From positions 1 to 34,945 of the forward strand of contig LFLC01000065.1 of assembly GCA_001543015.1 (NCBI GenBank): DNA of 34,945 bases. The letters are read 5' to 3'. The notes under the pieces were generated by a model. The model worked only from the letters and a program-made list of their open reading frames with translations. It searched no databases and had not been told where the DNA came from. Made by a program: the position numbers and the translations under genes. Below, one piece after another: positions 3,359-8,747 of the stretch. Origin of the DNA: Nitrosopumilus sp. LS_AOA (GTDB lineage Archaea > Thermoproteota > Nitrososphaeria > Nitrososphaerales > Nitrosopumilaceae). How positions within the stretch are numbered: position 1 is the first letter of the stretch; the number at the start of each line of letters is the position of its first letter.

Positions 3359-3377
3359 TCAAATCTTGATAATTTCG

Positions 3378-3593
3378 ATGTCCGAATCTAGACAAATTTC
3401 TGTATCAAAGAATGGTGTTTCAAAACTTGCAATAATTGCATTAGCATTAGTATTTGTAGCAGGATTATTTGTAGTAGGATTTGATCAAGGACATATCTTT
3501 AGTCTAGTTATTGGTGAGGAGGCATTTGCAGATCTTTACATCCATGAACTAACTCACGATATGCGTCATGCAGCCGGTTTTCCATGCCATTAA
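3378..3593 (+). CDS. cbtB: CbtB cobalt transporter subunit, copy 1
   Basis: 71 aa when started at ATG 3378. A TTG 12 nt upstream is possible, but the TATA spacing and alignment with copy 2 favour the ATG. One transmembrane helix (about 16-38) is followed by an acidic and His-rich tail ending HELTHDMRHAAGFPCH, the signature of CbtB. CbtB is the small partner of CbtA in a predicted cobalt uptake system first noted next to B12 regulation in bacteria; the His-rich tail is the likely metal ligand. The last 46 residues are identical to copy 2 at 4319, while the first 25 differ. It is the only gene on its transcript before a convergent regulator gene. Confidence 0.9.
   Translation: MSESRQISVSKNGVSKLAIIALALVFVAGLFVVGFDQGHIFSLVIGEEAFADLYIHELTHDMRHAAGFPCH
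3451..3586 (+). repeat. 136-bp identical block shared by two cbtB copies (copy 1)
   Basis: Positions 3451-3586 match 4392-4527 base for base (offset 941), including all synonymous sites. The flanking 5' coding parts are clearly diverged, and a synonymous C/T change follows immediately at 3587/4528. This pattern indicates recent gene conversion or partial duplication limited to the 3' part of the gene. Confidence 0.95.
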
Positions 3594-3607: not shown

Positions 3608-4252
3608 TCAACTAGTTCCTAACGTCCAAAGTATTGTATTGATTGCGGCTATTTCTGCTACGAATTTATCATCTGATGAAGTGATTATGACTATATCTCC
3701 TTCTTCAGGACTCAATAATTTTATCAAATTATCTTTGGTTTCTAATTCATCTGTAAAACAACTAATCTTATCCCCAGAAAAAACAAATTCCTTGTTTTTG
3801 AATATTAATGTTAAAGAATCACTTGCCCCATATAGGATAGCATAGTCCCGCTGTTGCATTCCATTTTCTATGCTTGCACCAAACTCTTTCTTTAGTAAAA
3901 TCGCATAATTGAATTTTCCATTTGTGATCCCACATTTTTTTATGAGACCTTGTGATGGCATTACATTGTAAAATTGGTTTGCAAACTTGATTCCTTTTTT
4001 TGTAAGAAAAGTTCCTGCTCTGATAGAATCCACTAGTCCGTATTCTTTTAAATGTGAAATCAATGTTTTAACTGCACCTTCACCCAAATGGATTTCTTTA
4101 CAAAATGTTGCTCTACTAACATATTTTTGATTAGCAAAACAAAAAATTGATTTTAAAACATGAGGTGCACTAAAAGTCAATATTTTACTTGACCCTTTTC
4201 TTGTAACAATATTTTGTAATGTTTTTACTTGCTGTCGCACATTTTTTATCAT
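3608..4252 (-). CDS. Winged-helix transcriptional regulator (DUF4443-like), candidate regulator of cobalt uptake
   Basis: 214 aa from ATG at 4252; a TTG at 4285 would add 11 residues. I prefer 4252 because the shared TATA element at 4288-4297 would place the transcript start near 4266. Residues about 30-95 form a winged helix (F-C-K-E-I-H-L-G-E-G-A-V-K-T-L-I-S-H-L-K recognition region, then a wing with GTFLTKKG). The C-terminal half resembles the archaeal DUF4443 ligand domain, by memory only. The gene lies antisense between two cbtB copies, is divergent from cbtB-2/cbtA by 66 bp and convergent with cbtB-1, so control of cobalt or cobalamin supply is a reasonable inference. Inducer unknown. 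Confidence 0.75.
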   Translation of the reverse strand: MIKNVRQQVKTLQNIVTRKGSSKILTFSAPHVLKSIFCFANQKYVSRATFCKEIHLGEGAVKTLISHLKEYGLVDSIRAGTFLTKKGIKFANQFYNVMPSQGLIKKCGITNGKFNYAILLKKEFGASIENGMQQRDYAILYGASDSLTLIFKNKEFVFSGDKISCFTDELETKDNLIKLLSPEEGDIVIITSSDDKFVAEIAAINTILWTLGTS

Positions 4253-4287
4253 TTTTGATGTATATAAATTGGATAAAACATCCAACG

Positions 4288-4318: not shown

Positions 4319-4534
4319 TTGTCACAATCAAAAGAGATTATAATTTCTAAATCTAGTATTCCTATTTTTGCAATAGTATTATTGGCAATGATATTTGTAG
4401 CAGGATTATTTGTAGTAGGATTTGATCAAGGACATATCTTTAGTCTAGTTATTGGTGAGGAGGCATTTGCAGATCTTTACATCCATGAACTAACTCACGA
4501 TATGCGTCATGCAGCCGGTTTTCCATGTCATTAG
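4319..4534 (+). CDS. cbtB: CbtB cobalt transporter subunit, copy 2 (TTG start)
   Basis: 71 aa, the same length as copy 1. The start is TTG at 4319; no in-frame ATG precedes the membrane helix, and the TATA box at 4288 gives leaderless spacing to this TTG. One helix (about 15-38) precedes the His-rich tail HELTHDMRHAAGFPCH. Residues 26-71 are identical to copy 1. It is followed by cbtA after 10 nt, so this is the copy cotranscribed with the transporter, whereas copy 1 is a stand-alone gene about 940 bp upstream. Confidence 0.9.
   Translation: MSQSKEIIISKSSIPIFAIVLLAMIFVAGLFVVGFDQGHIFSLVIGEEAFADLYIHELTHDMRHAAGFPCH
4392..4527 (+). repeat. 136-bp identical block shared by two cbtB copies (copy 2)
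   Basis: Exact match of 3451-3586. See copy 1. Confidence 0.95.
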
Positions 4535-4544: not shown

Positions 4545-5276
4545 ATGAAAACAGCTATTTTTCTAATCATTGTTTTAATTTCAGGAGCACTTGCAGGTTT
4601 TGTTCATGGAACAGTAAATTTTGCAATTGTTGAACCATACCTTGATCAAGCAATTGGCATTGAAAATCAAAATTTGTTTGCATCAGGTGAAGCAGAAGAC
4701 ACTCCTCAATTTTGGGCAGAATATGAGGGATATCGAATTTGGCAAAAAAGTGGCCAAGTTTTAGCTGGAGTCATTTTAGGTACATCTATTGGTGCATTAT
4801 TTGGTTTAGTGTTTGCATTTGCTAGAAACGTATTACCTGGAAATAATGATATCAAAAAAGCACTAGTTTTAGCTGGAATTATGTGGTTTACCATGTATTT
4901 GATTCCATTTCTCAAATATCCTGCAAACCCTCCAACTGTAGGTGACTCTGAAACTGTTGTGTTACGTGCGATACTGTATCTATCATTTATTGCAATTTCA
5001 GGATTTGGTGCATTGGGATTTTATCAATTATCAAAGAAATTCCAAAACAAGAAAAAAATTATTCCACTGGTAGGTTATGGTCTTTTCATTTCTATAGCAT
5101 TCTTTGTAATGCCTGAGAATCCTGATGAGATTACTGCGCCAATGAACTTGGTAAATGAATTTAGAATGATGTCTGTCCTTGGAGTAACTTCTTTTTGGAT
5201 ATCAGTTGGTGTATTCTTGGGATTGTTTTGGAATCGTCTAAAACCTCATCAAGAAACTACTCCATCTTTTAATTAG
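4545..5276 (+). CDS. cbtA: CbtA cobalt transporter membrane subunit
   Basis: 243 aa with about six hydrophobic segments (roughly 4-22, 71-93, 105-122, 137-160, 172-189, 210-229); the CbtA family is described with five or more helices. The N-terminal G-A-L-A-G-F-V-H-G and F-A-I-V-E-P motif and the E-G-Y-R segment before helix 2 are typical of CbtA. Together with CbtB it forms a predicted cobalt uptake system in the cytoplasmic membrane. It lies 10 nt after cbtB-2 with its own SD site, so it is cotranscribed. Ammonia-oxidising archaea make cobalamin, which explains the need for cobalt. Confidence 0.9.
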   Translation: MKTAIFLIIVLISGALAGFVHGTVNFAIVEPYLDQAIGIENQNLFASGEAEDTPQFWAEYEGYRIWQKSGQVLAGVILGTSIGALFGLVFAFARNVLPGNNDIKKALVLAGIMWFTMYLIPFLKYPANPPTVGDSETVVLRAILYLSFIAISGFGALGFYQLSKKFQNKKKIIPLVGYGLFISIAFFVMPENPDEITAPMNLVNEFRMMSVLGVTSFWISVGVFLGLFWNRLKPHQETTPSFN

Positions 5277-5298
5277 TTATTCTAACTCTCTAGAATGA
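5277..5298. promoter_or_regulatory. Candidate operator O1: TTATTCTA-N6-TAGAATGA
   Basis: Half-sites at 5277-5284 and 5291-5298 form an inverted repeat with a 6-bp spacer and one mismatch. It lies 17 bp upstream of the TATA box of the wHTH pair. The same arrangement recurs before phnD (6045-6066). The 12-mer TAGAATGAGAAT at 5291-5302 recurs exactly as its reverse complement at 6041-6052. Confidence 0.6.
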
Positions 5299-5314
5299 GA
5301 ATCATATATACTCG

Positions 5315-5323
5315 TTTAAATAT
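5315..5323 (+). promoter_or_regulatory. TATA box of the wHTH gene pair
   Basis: TTTAAATAT is centred 27 nt before the ATG at 5346, the standard distance for a leaderless archaeal transcript. Confidence 0.65.
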
Positions 5324-5345
5324 CTAAAATATTTACAACGTTAAC

Positions 5346-5678
5346 ATGTCAAGGCGATTAACATTACCACAATTAAAAAAATATGATATTACTCAAAAAG
5401 TAATTGAAGCACTTGCAGACTCTGAATCAAGAGCTATATTATTTTCAATAATTAGAAAAGGAAACACTGCAGCTGAACTTTCAAATAAACTCAAAATCCC
5501 ACTAAGTTCTGTTTACAAAAAACTCTCAGATCTTGAAGAACTAACTTTAATCAAAGTTGAAAAATGGATGATATCTGATAAGGGACGGAAATACAAAGTG
5601 TATAAGAGTAGAATCAGCAAAGCTGATATTTCAATTAGAAAACCTGAGCCAACTTTGATTTTAGTTCCAAACAAGTGA
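5346..5678 (+). CDS. Winged-helix (ArsR/TrmB-like) transcriptional regulator, paralogue 1
   Basis: 110 aa. A single wHTH domain fills residues about 14-90: D-I-T-Q-K-V-I-E-A-L, then AAELSNKLKIPLSSVYKKLSDLEELTLIK as the helix-turn-helix, and a wing around WMISDKGRKYKVYKSR. No ligand domain or metal-binding Cys/His cluster is visible. It forms a coupled pair with the next gene (stop TGA overlaps a possible GTG) and precedes the phnDCE transporter. Inverted repeats before both this gene and phnD suggest that the pair regulates itself and the transporter. Confidence 0.82.
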   Translation: MSRRLTLPQLKKYDITQKVIEALADSESRAILFSIIRKGNTAAELSNKLKIPLSSVYKKLSDLEELTLIKVEKWMISDKGRKYKVYKSRISKADISIRKPEPTLILVPNK

Positions 5679-5683
5679 GATTG

Positions 5684-6034
5684 ATGTCAAAACCAGGTAT
5701 TATTCAATTATCCGAGTTTGATATTACTCAAAAAATCATTGAATCCCTTAGTAATGTTTGTACTCGAGCTGTATTATTTTCAATAAAATATGAATCAAAA
5801 GATGCTACTCAAATTTCAGATGAATTGAAAATATCAATTTCAACTGTTTACAAAACATTGTCTATTCTTGAGGATCTTGCACTAGTTGAAATAGAACACT
5901 TTGTAATTTCTTCAGAAGGTAAAAAAATCAAACAATATCGAAGTAGAATTGGTAAAGTTGAAATTATTTTAGAGGATTCAGAACCTAGTTTGAGTTTGTA
6001 TCCAAATCTCTCAAATGTAAAATCTGATTCTTAG
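5684..6034 (+). CDS. Winged-helix transcriptional regulator, paralogue 2
   Basis: 116 aa from ATG 5684; a GTG at 5675 overlapping the upstream stop (GTGA) is the alternative. ATG is preferred because it aligns with the start of paralogue 1. The proteins match throughout: FDITQKIIESL versus YDITQKVIEAL, STVYKTLSILEDLALVEIEHF versus SSVYKKLSDLEELTLIKVEKW, and a shared wing ending YRSRIGK/YKSRISK. Tandem duplication followed by divergence is clear. Translational coupling suggests equal amounts and perhaps heterodimer formation, which is inference. Confidence 0.82.
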   Translation: MSKPGIIQLSEFDITQKIIESLSNVCTRAVLFSIKYESKDATQISDELKISISTVYKTLSILEDLALVEIEHFVISSEGKKIKQYRSRIGKVEIILEDSEPSLSLYPNLSNVKSDS

Positions 6035-6044
6035 TTTTACATTC

Positions 6045-6066
6045 TCATTCTATAGATTTAGAATGA
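6045..6066. promoter_or_regulatory. Candidate operator O2: TCATTCTA-N6-TAGAATGA (perfect)
   Basis: Perfect 8-bp half-sites at 6045-6052 and 6059-6066 with spacer TAGATT. It lies about 21 bp upstream of the phnD TATA box. A further partial half-site (GGAATGAA) follows at 6073-6080. It matches operator O1 before the wHTH genes in half-site sequence and spacer length. Confidence 0.65.
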
Positions 6067-6087
6067 ACCCTTGGAATGAATACTTGC

Positions 6088-6096
6088 TTTAAATAA
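6088..6096 (+). promoter_or_regulatory. TATA box of phnDCE operon
   Basis: TTTAAATAA is centred about 34 nt before the phnD ATG, leaving a short leader containing TTTAGGAAATT. It sits just downstream of operator O2. Confidence 0.55.
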
Positions 6097-6125
6097 TTAG
6101 CTTTTACTAAATTTTTTAGGAAATT

Positions 6126-7130
6126 ATGAAACAAAAAATAATTTTAACATTTGTTGTAATTGCTGTAGCTGCCTTTCTTGGTGGCTATGGTTTAGGGAAT
6201 GTGAATGATAATTCTGATTCTTTAACAACTAATGAAATCATTAACGTTTCATCTGAATCAAAATCTATTGATGTTGACACCCTAACTATTGGATTTATTC
6301 CAGTTGAAAAAGCTGATGAATTAACTCCAAAAGCTAAAGCACTAGAAGTATTTCTAGAAAATGAACTTGGTGTTGATGTAGATATAGTTGTTCCATCTGG
6401 ATATGAGGCAATCATTGAAGGAATGAGATTTGGTCACATTGATGCTGCTTTTATGGATACTGGCCCTGCATGGATTACCCATCAAAGGACTGGTGCAGAA
6501 GCAGTATTGGCAGAACTTGTTGCTGGAAAAGTAAACTATCAAGCAACAGTTTGGGCTTTGGCTGAGAATGACTCTATTCAATCATTAGAAGATACAATTG
6601 GTAAACGGGTAGCATTTACTAGCATTACCGGCTCTTCTGGTTTTGTTAGACCTATGGGTACCTTAGTTACTGAAGGACATATTGTCATTGAAGGCGATGA
6701 TATTATTGCATTACAATCTGCATTAACAAATAACTTTGAAAGTCATACTTTTGCAGGTGGTTACAAGGCAGCTTTGGAATTACTCTTACTTGACCAAGTC
6801 GATGTAGCATTTGGTTCAGATATTGCTCCTAAAAAATATCTTGATTTAGAAGATCAAGCAAAATTACGTCCTGTAACAACTATTGGACCTGTTCCATCAC
6901 ATGTTTTCATGGTACATTCTGACATGTCAGAATCTACTCGTGATGCACTAGTTAGTGCTTTAATCAAACTCAACTATGATGAGAATAATTCAATTTTGAC
7001 GGATTTGTATGGTGCTGATGCACTTGTCCCAACCACCACTAGTATGCATATCGGTGAGTTTGGTGACTACCTTAATGCATTAACTGGCCTTGATCAGCTT
7101 ATTCTTGACAAATATAATAAGAGCAAATAA
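6126..7130 (+). CDS. phnD: Phosphonate/phosphite-type ABC transporter substrate-binding protein (PhnD family)
   Basis: 334 aa. Residues 5-25 are a hydrophobic signal anchor without a lipobox cysteine, so it is probably tethered outside the membrane by this helix. The mature part has the PhnD fold: TIGFIPVEKADELTPKAKAL at the start, then PSGYEAIIEGMRFGHIDAAF and MDTGPAW, the conserved ligand-loop region. It would deliver phosphonate, phosphite or a related oxyanion to PhnCE. It is the first gene of a three-gene operon. No C-P lyase or phosphonatase gene is in the window, so the fate of the ligand is open. Confidence 0.88.
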   Translation: MKQKIILTFVVIAVAAFLGGYGLGNVNDNSDSLTTNEIINVSSESKSIDVDTLTIGFIPVEKADELTPKAKALEVFLENELGVDVDIVVPSGYEAIIEGMRFGHIDAAFMDTGPAWITHQRTGAEAVLAELVAGKVNYQATVWALAENDSIQSLEDTIGKRVAFTSITGSSGFVRPMGTLVTEGHIVIEGDDIIALQSALTNNFESHTFAGGYKAALELLLLDQVDVAFGSDIAPKKYLDLEDQAKLRPVTTIGPVPSHVFMVHSDMSESTRDALVSALIKLNYDENNSILTDLYGADALVPTTTSMHIGEFGDYLNALTGLDQLILDKYNKSK

Positions 7131-7147: not shown

Positions 7148-7978
7148 ATGAAACAAATTCAGATGACCACTAATCCTTCTTTTTCATTAATTTCAACAAA
7201 AAAAGTTATTCAAATGAGTGATGTATGGTCATCATATGATTCTAAAAATTTTGCTTTAGAGGGAATTAATTTATCCATTGATAGGGGAACTATTTACTCA
7301 ATTGTCGGTCAATCTGGTTCAGGAAAATCTACTTTGCTCAAATTAATGAACGGGATGATGGTTCCAGGAAAAGGAATAATCAAAATTGATTATGTCACCC
7401 CTGATATGAATAATAAAAAATTTAAAACAATGATGCATACAATCGGATATATTCCTCAAAGTCTTGGGTTGATAAAAAATATCACAGTTCTTGACAATAT
7501 TCTCATTGGTGCATTACCTAGACTAAACAAAATTCAATCACTGTTAAAGAAATTTCCAGAAAATGAAGTAAAGGAAGCTAAAAGAATTCTTCAATTAGTT
7601 GGATTAACTGGAAAAGAGAATAGAAAAGTCTACATGATTAGTGGCGGTGAAAAGAGAAGAGTTGCAATTGCTAGGGCATTAATGCAAAAACCTACAATTT
7701 TGTTAGCAGATGAAATTGTTTCAGAATTAGATCACGTTACTGCACACGAGATTATGGATTTAATTATAGATGTTCAAAAAAGAACGAATTTGACTGCAAT
7801 AATGGTTCATCATGACATGCAACTAGCATTAGAATATGCAAATAGAGTTGCAGTTATCAAAGATGGGAAAAAAATCTTAGAGATAGGTGTTGAGGGTGAT
7901 AACATTGTTGATTTTCAAACAGGAGATATGACTACTGAAGAAATTATGGAGATGTATTCTGATGACCCCAAAAAATAA
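7148..7978 (+). CDS. phnC: Phosphonate-type ABC transporter ATP-binding protein
   Basis: 276 aa with a complete ABC ATPase core: Walker A GQSGSGKST (54-62), signature SGGEK (165-169), Walker B ILLADE (184-189), D-loop SELD (192-195) and switch His in MVHHD (H222). After Walker B the usual DEP is DEI, a substitution at the proline; this is conservative for catalysis because the Glu is kept. The closest general fit is PhnC by operon context. It starts 17 nt after phnD, and its 3' end overlaps phnE by 17 nt. ATPase acts at the inner membrane face. Confidence 0.9.
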   Translation: MKQIQMTTNPSFSLISTKKVIQMSDVWSSYDSKNFALEGINLSIDRGTIYSIVGQSGSGKSTLLKLMNGMMVPGKGIIKIDYVTPDMNNKKFKTMMHTIGYIPQSLGLIKNITVLDNILIGALPRLNKIQSLLKKFPENEVKEAKRILQLVGLTGKENRKVYMISGGEKRRVAIARALMQKPTILLADEIVSELDHVTAHEIMDLIIDVQKRTNLTAIMVHHDMQLALEYANRVAVIKDGKKILEIGVEGDNIVDFQTGDMTTEEIMEMYSDDPKK

Positions 7979-8747
7979 CATCATCATTGGAATAATTGTA
8001 GCATTACTAGTAATTGCATCTTATAATGTTGATGCAAATCCAATTGACTTTGTTGAAGGATTACCTAATCTTGTAATCATTCTTGAGGAGATAGTAGCAG
8101 TTGAACCAAAGTATATCCCAACTGCGCTATGGGCAATGTTTGAAACTATACAAATGGCATTTATTGGAACTGTAGTTGGAATTGCAATTGCACTACCTCT
8201 TAGTATGCTTGCTGCACGAAATCTAAACAGTAAATTTGTCTATGCCCCAATCAGAGCATTGTTAGCTGCGATTCGTACGTTTCCTTCTATTTTATGGGCA
8301 TTGTTGTTTGTGATAATGGTCGGAACTGGAACCTTTGCAGGAGTTTTAGCAATTATTATGTACACAATTGGATTTATTACAAAATTACAATACGAGGCAA
8401 TTGAAACAATTGATTCTGATCCTATGGATGCAGTTGGTTCTATTGGTGTATCAAAAATACAATTGATTAGTTATGTTGTGATTCCAGAATCGGCATCTCA
8501 TCTTCTTAGTCAAATGCTATACATGTTTGATTACAACATTCGTCAAACCAGTATACTTGGATTAGTTGGTGCAGGTGGAATTGGTTTTTACATTATTAAT
8601 TATATTAAATTCTTTGAGTATGGAAAAGCTGCTATCTTTATGTTGGTTGTTTTGATAACCGTTTTAATCATTGATTGGGTAAGTGTGAAGATTCGAGACA
8701 AGTACATTATCAAATCTCAACATGGTATGGATGTTCCCACAAAATAA
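7962..8747 (+). CDS. phnE: Phosphonate-type ABC transporter permease
   Basis: 261 aa with about six membrane helices (for example 7-22, 50-75, 87-105, 110-135 and 200-240). The EAA-like coupling loop is in D-A-V-G-S-I-G-V-S-K-I-Q-L-I-S-Y-V-V-I-P-E. The stretch LPLSMLAARN and the segment with RTFPSILWALLFV are typical of PhnE. It is the last gene of the phnDCE operon and its start lies inside phnC, suggesting translational coupling. It ends 14 bp from the convergent purP. Confidence 0.88.
   Translation: MTPKNNIIIGIIVALLVIASYNVDANPIDFVEGLPNLVIILEEIVAVEPKYIPTALWAMFETIQMAFIGTVVGIAIALPLSMLAARNLNSKFVYAPIRALLAAIRTFPSILWALLFVIMVGTGTFAGVLAIIMYTIGFITKLQYEAIETIDSDPMDAVGSIGVSKIQLISYVVIPESASHLLSQMLYMFDYNIRQTSILGLVGAGGIGFYIINYIKFFEYGKAAIFMLVVLITVLIIDWVSVKIRDKYIIKSQHGMDVPTK

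Follow-up and report, generated by a model that had tools for sequence, protein, structure and literature searches.

The locus analysed here touches on several described systems. Among regulators, these are the winged-helix (wHTH) proteins of the Phr/ArsR-SmtB family, to which P. furiosus Phr, CzrA and NolR belong, and the DtxR/IdeR/MntR family; among transporters, they are the FTR1/EfeU uptake system, with its imelysin-like EfeO partners, and the PhnDCE phosphonate and PtxABC phosphite importers of the ABC family. P. furiosus Phr is a repressor. Ammonia-oxidizing archaea (AOA) drive marine nitrification, and the way in which they acquire iron therefore bears on the nitrogen cycle. For N. maritimus SCM1, no iron-specific transporter has been found, and only generalist divalent-cation carriers have been pointed to (Shafiee et al. 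2019, PMC6776035). C-P lyase has been reported absent from AOA genomes (PMC7490402, PMC3990693), and for this reason phnCDE has been doubted as a phosphonate carrier in these organisms, where it probably transports something else or has no function (Qin et al. 2020, PMC7490402). In the literature outside subscription papers, no paper tying AOA phnCDE to iron was found.

An operator and an iron-type box common to phnDCE, FTR1 and ZIP genes join the question of the AOA phnCDE substrate (PMC7490402) to that of iron acquisition in Nitrosopumilus (PMC6776035), and named promoters and proteins are now available as test objects for AOA iron uptake. We propose, with a probability of about 0.7, that two palindromes of Nitrosopumilus sp. 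LS_AOA, O1 and O2, are operators of an iron (metal) uptake regulon of the Nitrosopumilaceae, in which the wHTH protein R1 would act together with DtxR-type control and phnDCE would be an iron-regulated importer. New in this work are the tie between phnDCE and an iron-type regulon, and a two-operator promoter that three unrelated transporters have in common.

Paired palindromes at the R1-R2-phnDCE locus

The window (the whole stretch of 34,945 nucleotides that was analysed, from contig LFLC01000065.1) carries the gene order cbtB, cbtB, cbtA, R1, R2, phnD, phnC, phnE. The second cbtB (4319-4534, + strand; PF09489) precedes cbtA (4545-5276, +; PF09490), which is the upstream neighbour of R1 (5346-5678, +); the latter encodes an ArsR/Phr-like winged-helix regulator of 110 residues, with Pfam matches to TrmB and HTH_20 just below cut-off. 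R2 (5684-6034, +), a paralogous wHTH regulator, starts 5 bp past the R1 stop codon, with its ATG at 5684 and an in-frame GTG at 5675. The two very similar cbtB copies (3366-3593 and 4319-4534) flank a divergent DUF4443 regulator gene (3608-4285, -), and may have arisen by recent duplication or represent a gene-conversion tract. No operator was found before cbtB among the sites scanned at locus L005.

O1 (5277-5298, +) begins at the base directly 3' of the cbtA stop codon and reads TTATTCTA-ACTCTC-TAGAATGA, one mismatch away from the form TCATTCTA-N6-TAGAATGA, which is matched perfectly by O2 (6045-6066, +; TCATTCTA-TAGATT-TAGAATGA), located 11 bases past the R2 stop. Both carry additional half-sites, an overlapping GAGAAT that ends at 5302 for O1 and a left-hand ATTCTC from 6041 for O2. 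The original prediction of 8-bp half-sites, a 6-bp spacer and a single mismatch at O1 is borne out by these sequences, and two wHTH paralogues do lie between the sites; the 12-mer that it described as common to both in opposite orientation, TAGAATGAGAAT, is found at 5291-5302 and, as its reverse complement, at 6041-6052. A TATA-like element, TTTAAATA, begins at both 5315 and 6088. The R1 TATA box (TTTAAATAT; 5315-5323, +) stands 31 bp before the R1 ATG and 16 bp past O1, one base short of the 17-21 bp initially claimed, and that of phnD (TTTAAATAA; 6088-6096, +) stands 21 bp past O2, as claimed. Between O2 and the latter lies a third, proximal half-site (TGGAATGA; 6072-6079, +), whose end is 8 bp before the TATA box.

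Conservation of the operators and of their spacing

In the window alone, sites with up to three mismatches are not significant, since 19 of 100 shuffles give at least two matches. A genome-wide motif search in the 1.93-Mb Nitrosopumilus genome shows that the motif is not randomly scattered, O1 and O2 being its sole sites with at most one mismatch. Conservation was scored at 134 distinct Nitrosopumilaceae loci from the best-matching site in the interval 25-95 bp upstream of R1; a site with no more than three mismatches is present at 104 of these, as compared to 0.19% of shuffles, counts that are not independent, because the genomes are related. The core TTCTA/TAGAA is near invariant before R1 (TT and GA 100%, C 98%, last A 99%), and the motif is also kept in phnD promoters. 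Among the matches listed for 60 genomes of the genus, ATTCTA-N6-TAGAATGA gives approximately 60 strand matches, and its reversed control none. The shorter ATTCTA-N6-TAGAAT occurs about 107 times in 30 genomes versus 8 times in the control (summed by hand), a raw count that overstates the regulon, as at least 17 matches, set aside here, fall within one glmM-like coding segment. This strict motif sits at one fixed place in the phosphoglucosamine-mutase-like (glmM-like) coding sequence of some 17 genomes (L284, L287, L292, L300 and others) and is probably a coding coincidence that inflates motif counts.

Both palindromes are real, non-random and conserved. The possibility that they are mere relics of shared descent was ruled out, since the half-sites and their distance to TATA are kept although spacers and flanks differ. 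Of 106 relatives, 74 have a gap of 16 bp between operator and TATA box at R1, and a further 15 have one of 10 bp; at phnD, the gap is 21 bp in 57 of the 59 promoters where a TATA box could be recognised. Among the strict sites of the loci retrieved, 98 have a TATA match, and for 81 of them the distance to the first TATA-like element is exactly 8, 16 or 21 bp, against a random-position control of roughly 0.1% per gap; the operator thus holds a fixed position relative to the core promoter. The proximal half-site of phnD promoters has the form T[GA]GAATGA, ends 8 bp before TATA, and occupies the position that, in FTR1 and ZIP promoters, belongs to the right half-site. In relatives, 29-34 bp separate the R1 TATA box from the start codon, and a leaderless or near-leaderless mRNA is therefore expected.

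The location of both palindromes just past stop codons, and the folding of the O2 region at -10.6 kcal/mol (z -3.2), could suggest that they act as RNA hairpins or terminators. This reading is extremely improbable and can be set aside, given that the O1 fold is weak (-5.5 kcal/mol, z -0.8), that terminator prediction gives no call at O1 or O2, and that the sites stand at a set distance upstream of TATA, also where the upstream gene differs.

R1 as a candidate operator-binding protein

The AlphaFold model of R1 (pLDDT 75) has the ArsR-type wHTH fold; among known structures it is matched best by P. furiosus Phr (2p4w, TM 0.71), with further matches to 4omz and 1r1u. R1 also resembles the Phr/ArsR-SmtB family in being a small, dimer-type wHTH protein that has a palindromic site and probably regulates its own gene. 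Unlike Phr, it lacks a C-terminal domain within its 110 residues, and it differs from the family at large in that its sites are placed before the TATA box and that it is devoid of cysteine in 132 of 134 orthologues and of histidine in 112 of 134. R1 does not show the Cys/His metal site of ArsR/SmtB sensors, and because it has no cysteine, it is not a classical metal-binding ArsR sensor. An orthologue is present in all 97 good Nitrosopumilaceae genomes, strong orthologues being confined to this family; a search of viral contigs found no R1 relatives.

Some genera retain R1 with an O1-type site but have no R2 (L042, L047 and, as a weaker case, the L044 group). R1 is accordingly the best candidate for the operator-binding protein, and R2 may modulate it or form heterodimers with it. 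Autoregulation, part of the original prediction, is likely, because the O1-type site accompanies R1 where R2 and phnDCE are not its downstream neighbours (L042, L047), and the sequence evidence taken together makes autoregulation by R1 and its control of phnDCE a well-supported proposal. R1, possibly together with R2, would bind the TTCTA-N6-TAGAA palindrome as a dimer, acting through O1 on its own gene and through O2 on phnDCE. From a proximal half-site 8-10 bp before TATA, it could contact TBP/TFB or RNA polymerase, and binding beside the BRE/TATA element would most likely help to recruit basal factors.

Activation by R1 is somewhat favoured over repression, because the operators lie upstream of TATA at rigid spacing. 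A role for R1 as repressor, where release from O1 and O2 would induce the genes and the wHTH pair rather than DtxR would carry the signal, is a possibility that we rate as less likely; it finds support in the structural match to Phr, itself a repressor, and in the fact that paired operators before a regulator and its target are common among repressors. However, the operators end 8-21 bp upstream of TATA, neither over nor past it, and their rigid spacing is a better fit to contact with basal factors.

An R1 paralogue (44% identity) is found divergent from an FTR1 operon, with an operator in between (L297, near 6900; L164:4121-4462). One of the genomes with this divergent arrangement, G134, has phnDCE too.

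A second box, possibly of iron type, downstream of TATA

Between the phnD TATA box and ATG, the window carries a DtxR/IdeR-like box (6097-6110, +), whose sequence TTAGC-TTTT-ACTAA (TTAGCTTTTACTAA) is a weak copy with two mismatches to TTAGG-N4-CCTAA; the family consensus is TTAGC-N4-CCTAA. Exact TTAG-N6-CTAA is present in 62 of 68 phnD promoters, as opposed to 0.5% of shuffles, at 9-11 bp from the start of TATA, FTR1 and ZIP promoters have the box at the same place, and R1 promoters of one genus (g9) carry a perfect TTAGG-N4-CCTAA. When 110 genomes of the family were searched blindly for TTTAAAT-N2-6-TTAGS-N4-CCTAA, around 83 matches (hand count) were obtained versus 1 for the reversed control, and all 30 of the loci retrieved lie directly before PhnD (23) or FTR1 (7), copies away from R1 included. 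The box is real and common to several promoters, which hence share a single module of operator, TATA and box.

The box resembles the half-site consensus proposed for IdeR/DtxR, TTAGGNNNNCCTAA (PMC8464063), and DtxR-family (Fe_dep_repr_C) genes occur in 30 of 30 genomes, at 2-5 copies each, with two in the LS_AOA genome. It is these likenesses to the DtxR/IdeR/MntR regulons that suggest that a DtxR-type protein reads the box. There are also differences from those regulons, in that the transporter boxes mostly have TTAGC as left half-site, that the combination of TATA and box stands almost only before phnD, FTR1, ZIP and R1, and that the box is coupled to a second, unrelated operator. No box was found in the promoters of 19 DtxR genes, and DtxR autoregulation was not borne out; in the LS_AOA genome, TTAGG-N4-CCTAA shows no enrichment when up to one mismatch is allowed (31 versus 139 in the control). 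A DtxR/IdeR-type iron-dependent repressor seated on TTAGC-N4-CCTAA would block the core promoter, turning phnDCE off when iron is plentiful, and it is this control of the phnD promoter that would make phnDCE an iron-regulated importer.

Regulon members and exchange of transporters

In relatives, the slot that follows R1-R2 is filled by phnDCE, by FTR1, by an FTR1 partner together with FTR1, by ZIP, or by imelysin-like genes, and the operator is found before nearly all of these. 'TPR' labels in this slot were set aside as artefacts that arise where long PhnD forms are matched in their N-terminal region, and phnD promoters were re-collected separately. Operators unlinked to R1 and phnD stand before FTR1, multicopper oxidases and imelysin-like (M75) proteins with PEFG tails, as well as before TFB (in several genomes), before the gene of a plastocyanin-domain protein and, in a single case, before sufB. 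The third best site of the LS_AOA genome (C34:5957) precedes an imelysin-like gene with the same 21-bp spacing. As would be expected of an iron-uptake regulon, the members include ZIP, imelysin-like M75 proteins and FTR1, and the FTR1 protein inspected carries the REXXE motifs REGLE and REGFE. FTR1 and PEFG-tailed imelysin-like proteins under R1-type operators are reminiscent of FTR1/EfeU uptake; unlike these relatives, the LS_AOA genome lacks FTR1, in place of which it carries phnDCE together with an imelysin-like gene at an unlinked site.

Genomes of the genus hardly ever encode both FTR1 and PhnD. Of the genomes at least 90% complete, 8 have FTR1 only, 28 PhnD only, 2 both and 1 neither (Fisher p=6e-6; p=6e-5 for all 60 genomes, with kinship ignored in both). 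This exchange could reflect common signalling instead of a common substrate.

Several further features were noted at these loci. Most FTR1 operons have, after FTR1, a hydantoinase/oxoprolinase-type protein of approximately 705 residues (PF05378, PF01968; L167:6694-8823, L168:5596-7719, L171:363-2489). The TFB (archaeal TFIIB) genes with an upstream operator (L115, L120, L121, L123, L124, L133, L321) mostly have a TTAGCTTAACCTAC element after it, and the presence of an operator here implies that the regulon may extend to a basal factor. In one genome, G104, an operator-like site (L314:17121) is found some 60 bp upstream of sufB (FeS cluster assembly), with TTAGCTGTGCCTAT near it. Met-rich secreted proteins with long M/N runs, possibly metal-binding, have an operator 21 bp before a TATA-like element (L291, L304).

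An alternative reading is that of a general trace-metal regulon, for copper, zinc, manganese or cobalt and not iron, with PhnDCE importing a metal chelate. ZIP, multicopper oxidases, the plastocyanin-domain protein and Met-rich proteins near operators speak for such a regulon, as does the adjacent cbtBA; we nevertheless regard it as unlikely, in view of FTR1 being an iron permease family, of the iron (or manganese) type of the TTAGG-N4-CCTAA box, and of the sufB site in one genome.

phnDCE and its substrate

The three transporter genes encode a PhnD-like substrate-binding protein (6126-7130, +; Phosphonate-bd PF12974, E=4e-42), a PhnC-like ABC ATPase (7148-7978, +) and a PhnE-like permease (7962-8747, +). 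They resemble PhnDCE phosphonate and PtxABC phosphite importers in ABC family and in gene order D-C-E, and the nearest solved relatives of PhnD are PtxB (5o2j) and E. coli PhnD (3p7i); its own structure model (pLDDT 47) is too poor for use. Unlike those importers, the archaeal genes stand in a metal-uptake regulatory context, and PhnD (91 versus 261 bits) and PhnC (TIGR02315, 198.8 versus 266.1 bits) fall below their NCBIfam equivalog cut-offs, PhnE being above its own (TIGR01097, 252 versus 216.7 bits). In a weak alignment, and as a single residue, Tyr213, invariant in 65 archaeal PhnD sequences, takes the position of His157 in E. coli PhnD; this residue and the sub-threshold PhnD score are suggestive, without being proof, of an importer of iron or an iron complex.

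The original prediction was that of a small autoregulated regulon for phosphonate-type transport. Its operators before R1 and phnD are conserved; its phosphonate part is not supported. A phosphonate or phosphate regulon, where R1 and R2 would autoregulate and control a true phosphonate/phosphite importer upon phosphorus shortage, would agree with the family assignment of PhnDCE, with the score of PhnE and with the conserved S-S-G oxyanion-type loop of PhnD, but is rendered improbable by the occurrence of the R1 and phnD operator also upstream of FTR1, ZIP, multicopper-oxidase and imelysin-like genes, by the exchange of phnDCE with FTR1, by the DtxR/IdeR-like box in the phnD promoter, by the invariant Tyr at the H157 position, and by the reported lack of C-P lyase (PMC7490402, PMC3990693).

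For the iron-uptake regulon proposed here, we infer the binding partners of each site, activation, and iron as both signal and substrate from the arrangement of promoters and genes. In the slot held by FTR1 or ZIP in relatives, phnDCE would most likely import iron or an iron complex. Counting against iron are the sequence-based placement of PhnD in the phosphonate/phosphite-binding family, with its S-S-G loop kept, the absence of cysteine from R1 and the degenerate box of the window. A more specific version is put forward tentatively, at somewhat less than even odds: AOA phnDCE would have been recruited from the phosphonate/phosphite ABC family as a high-affinity importer of iron or an iron complex, interchanging with FTR1 and ZIP at one locus, under the control of a thiol-free ArsR/Phr-like activator beside TATA and of a DtxR-type iron repressor after it. 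If this is true, AOA phnD in metagenomes would be a marker of iron, not of phosphorus. A second phnD-phnC copy, away from R1 (L349; genome G051, contig C29), likewise has the operator and the iron-type box, and its TATA spacing is the same.
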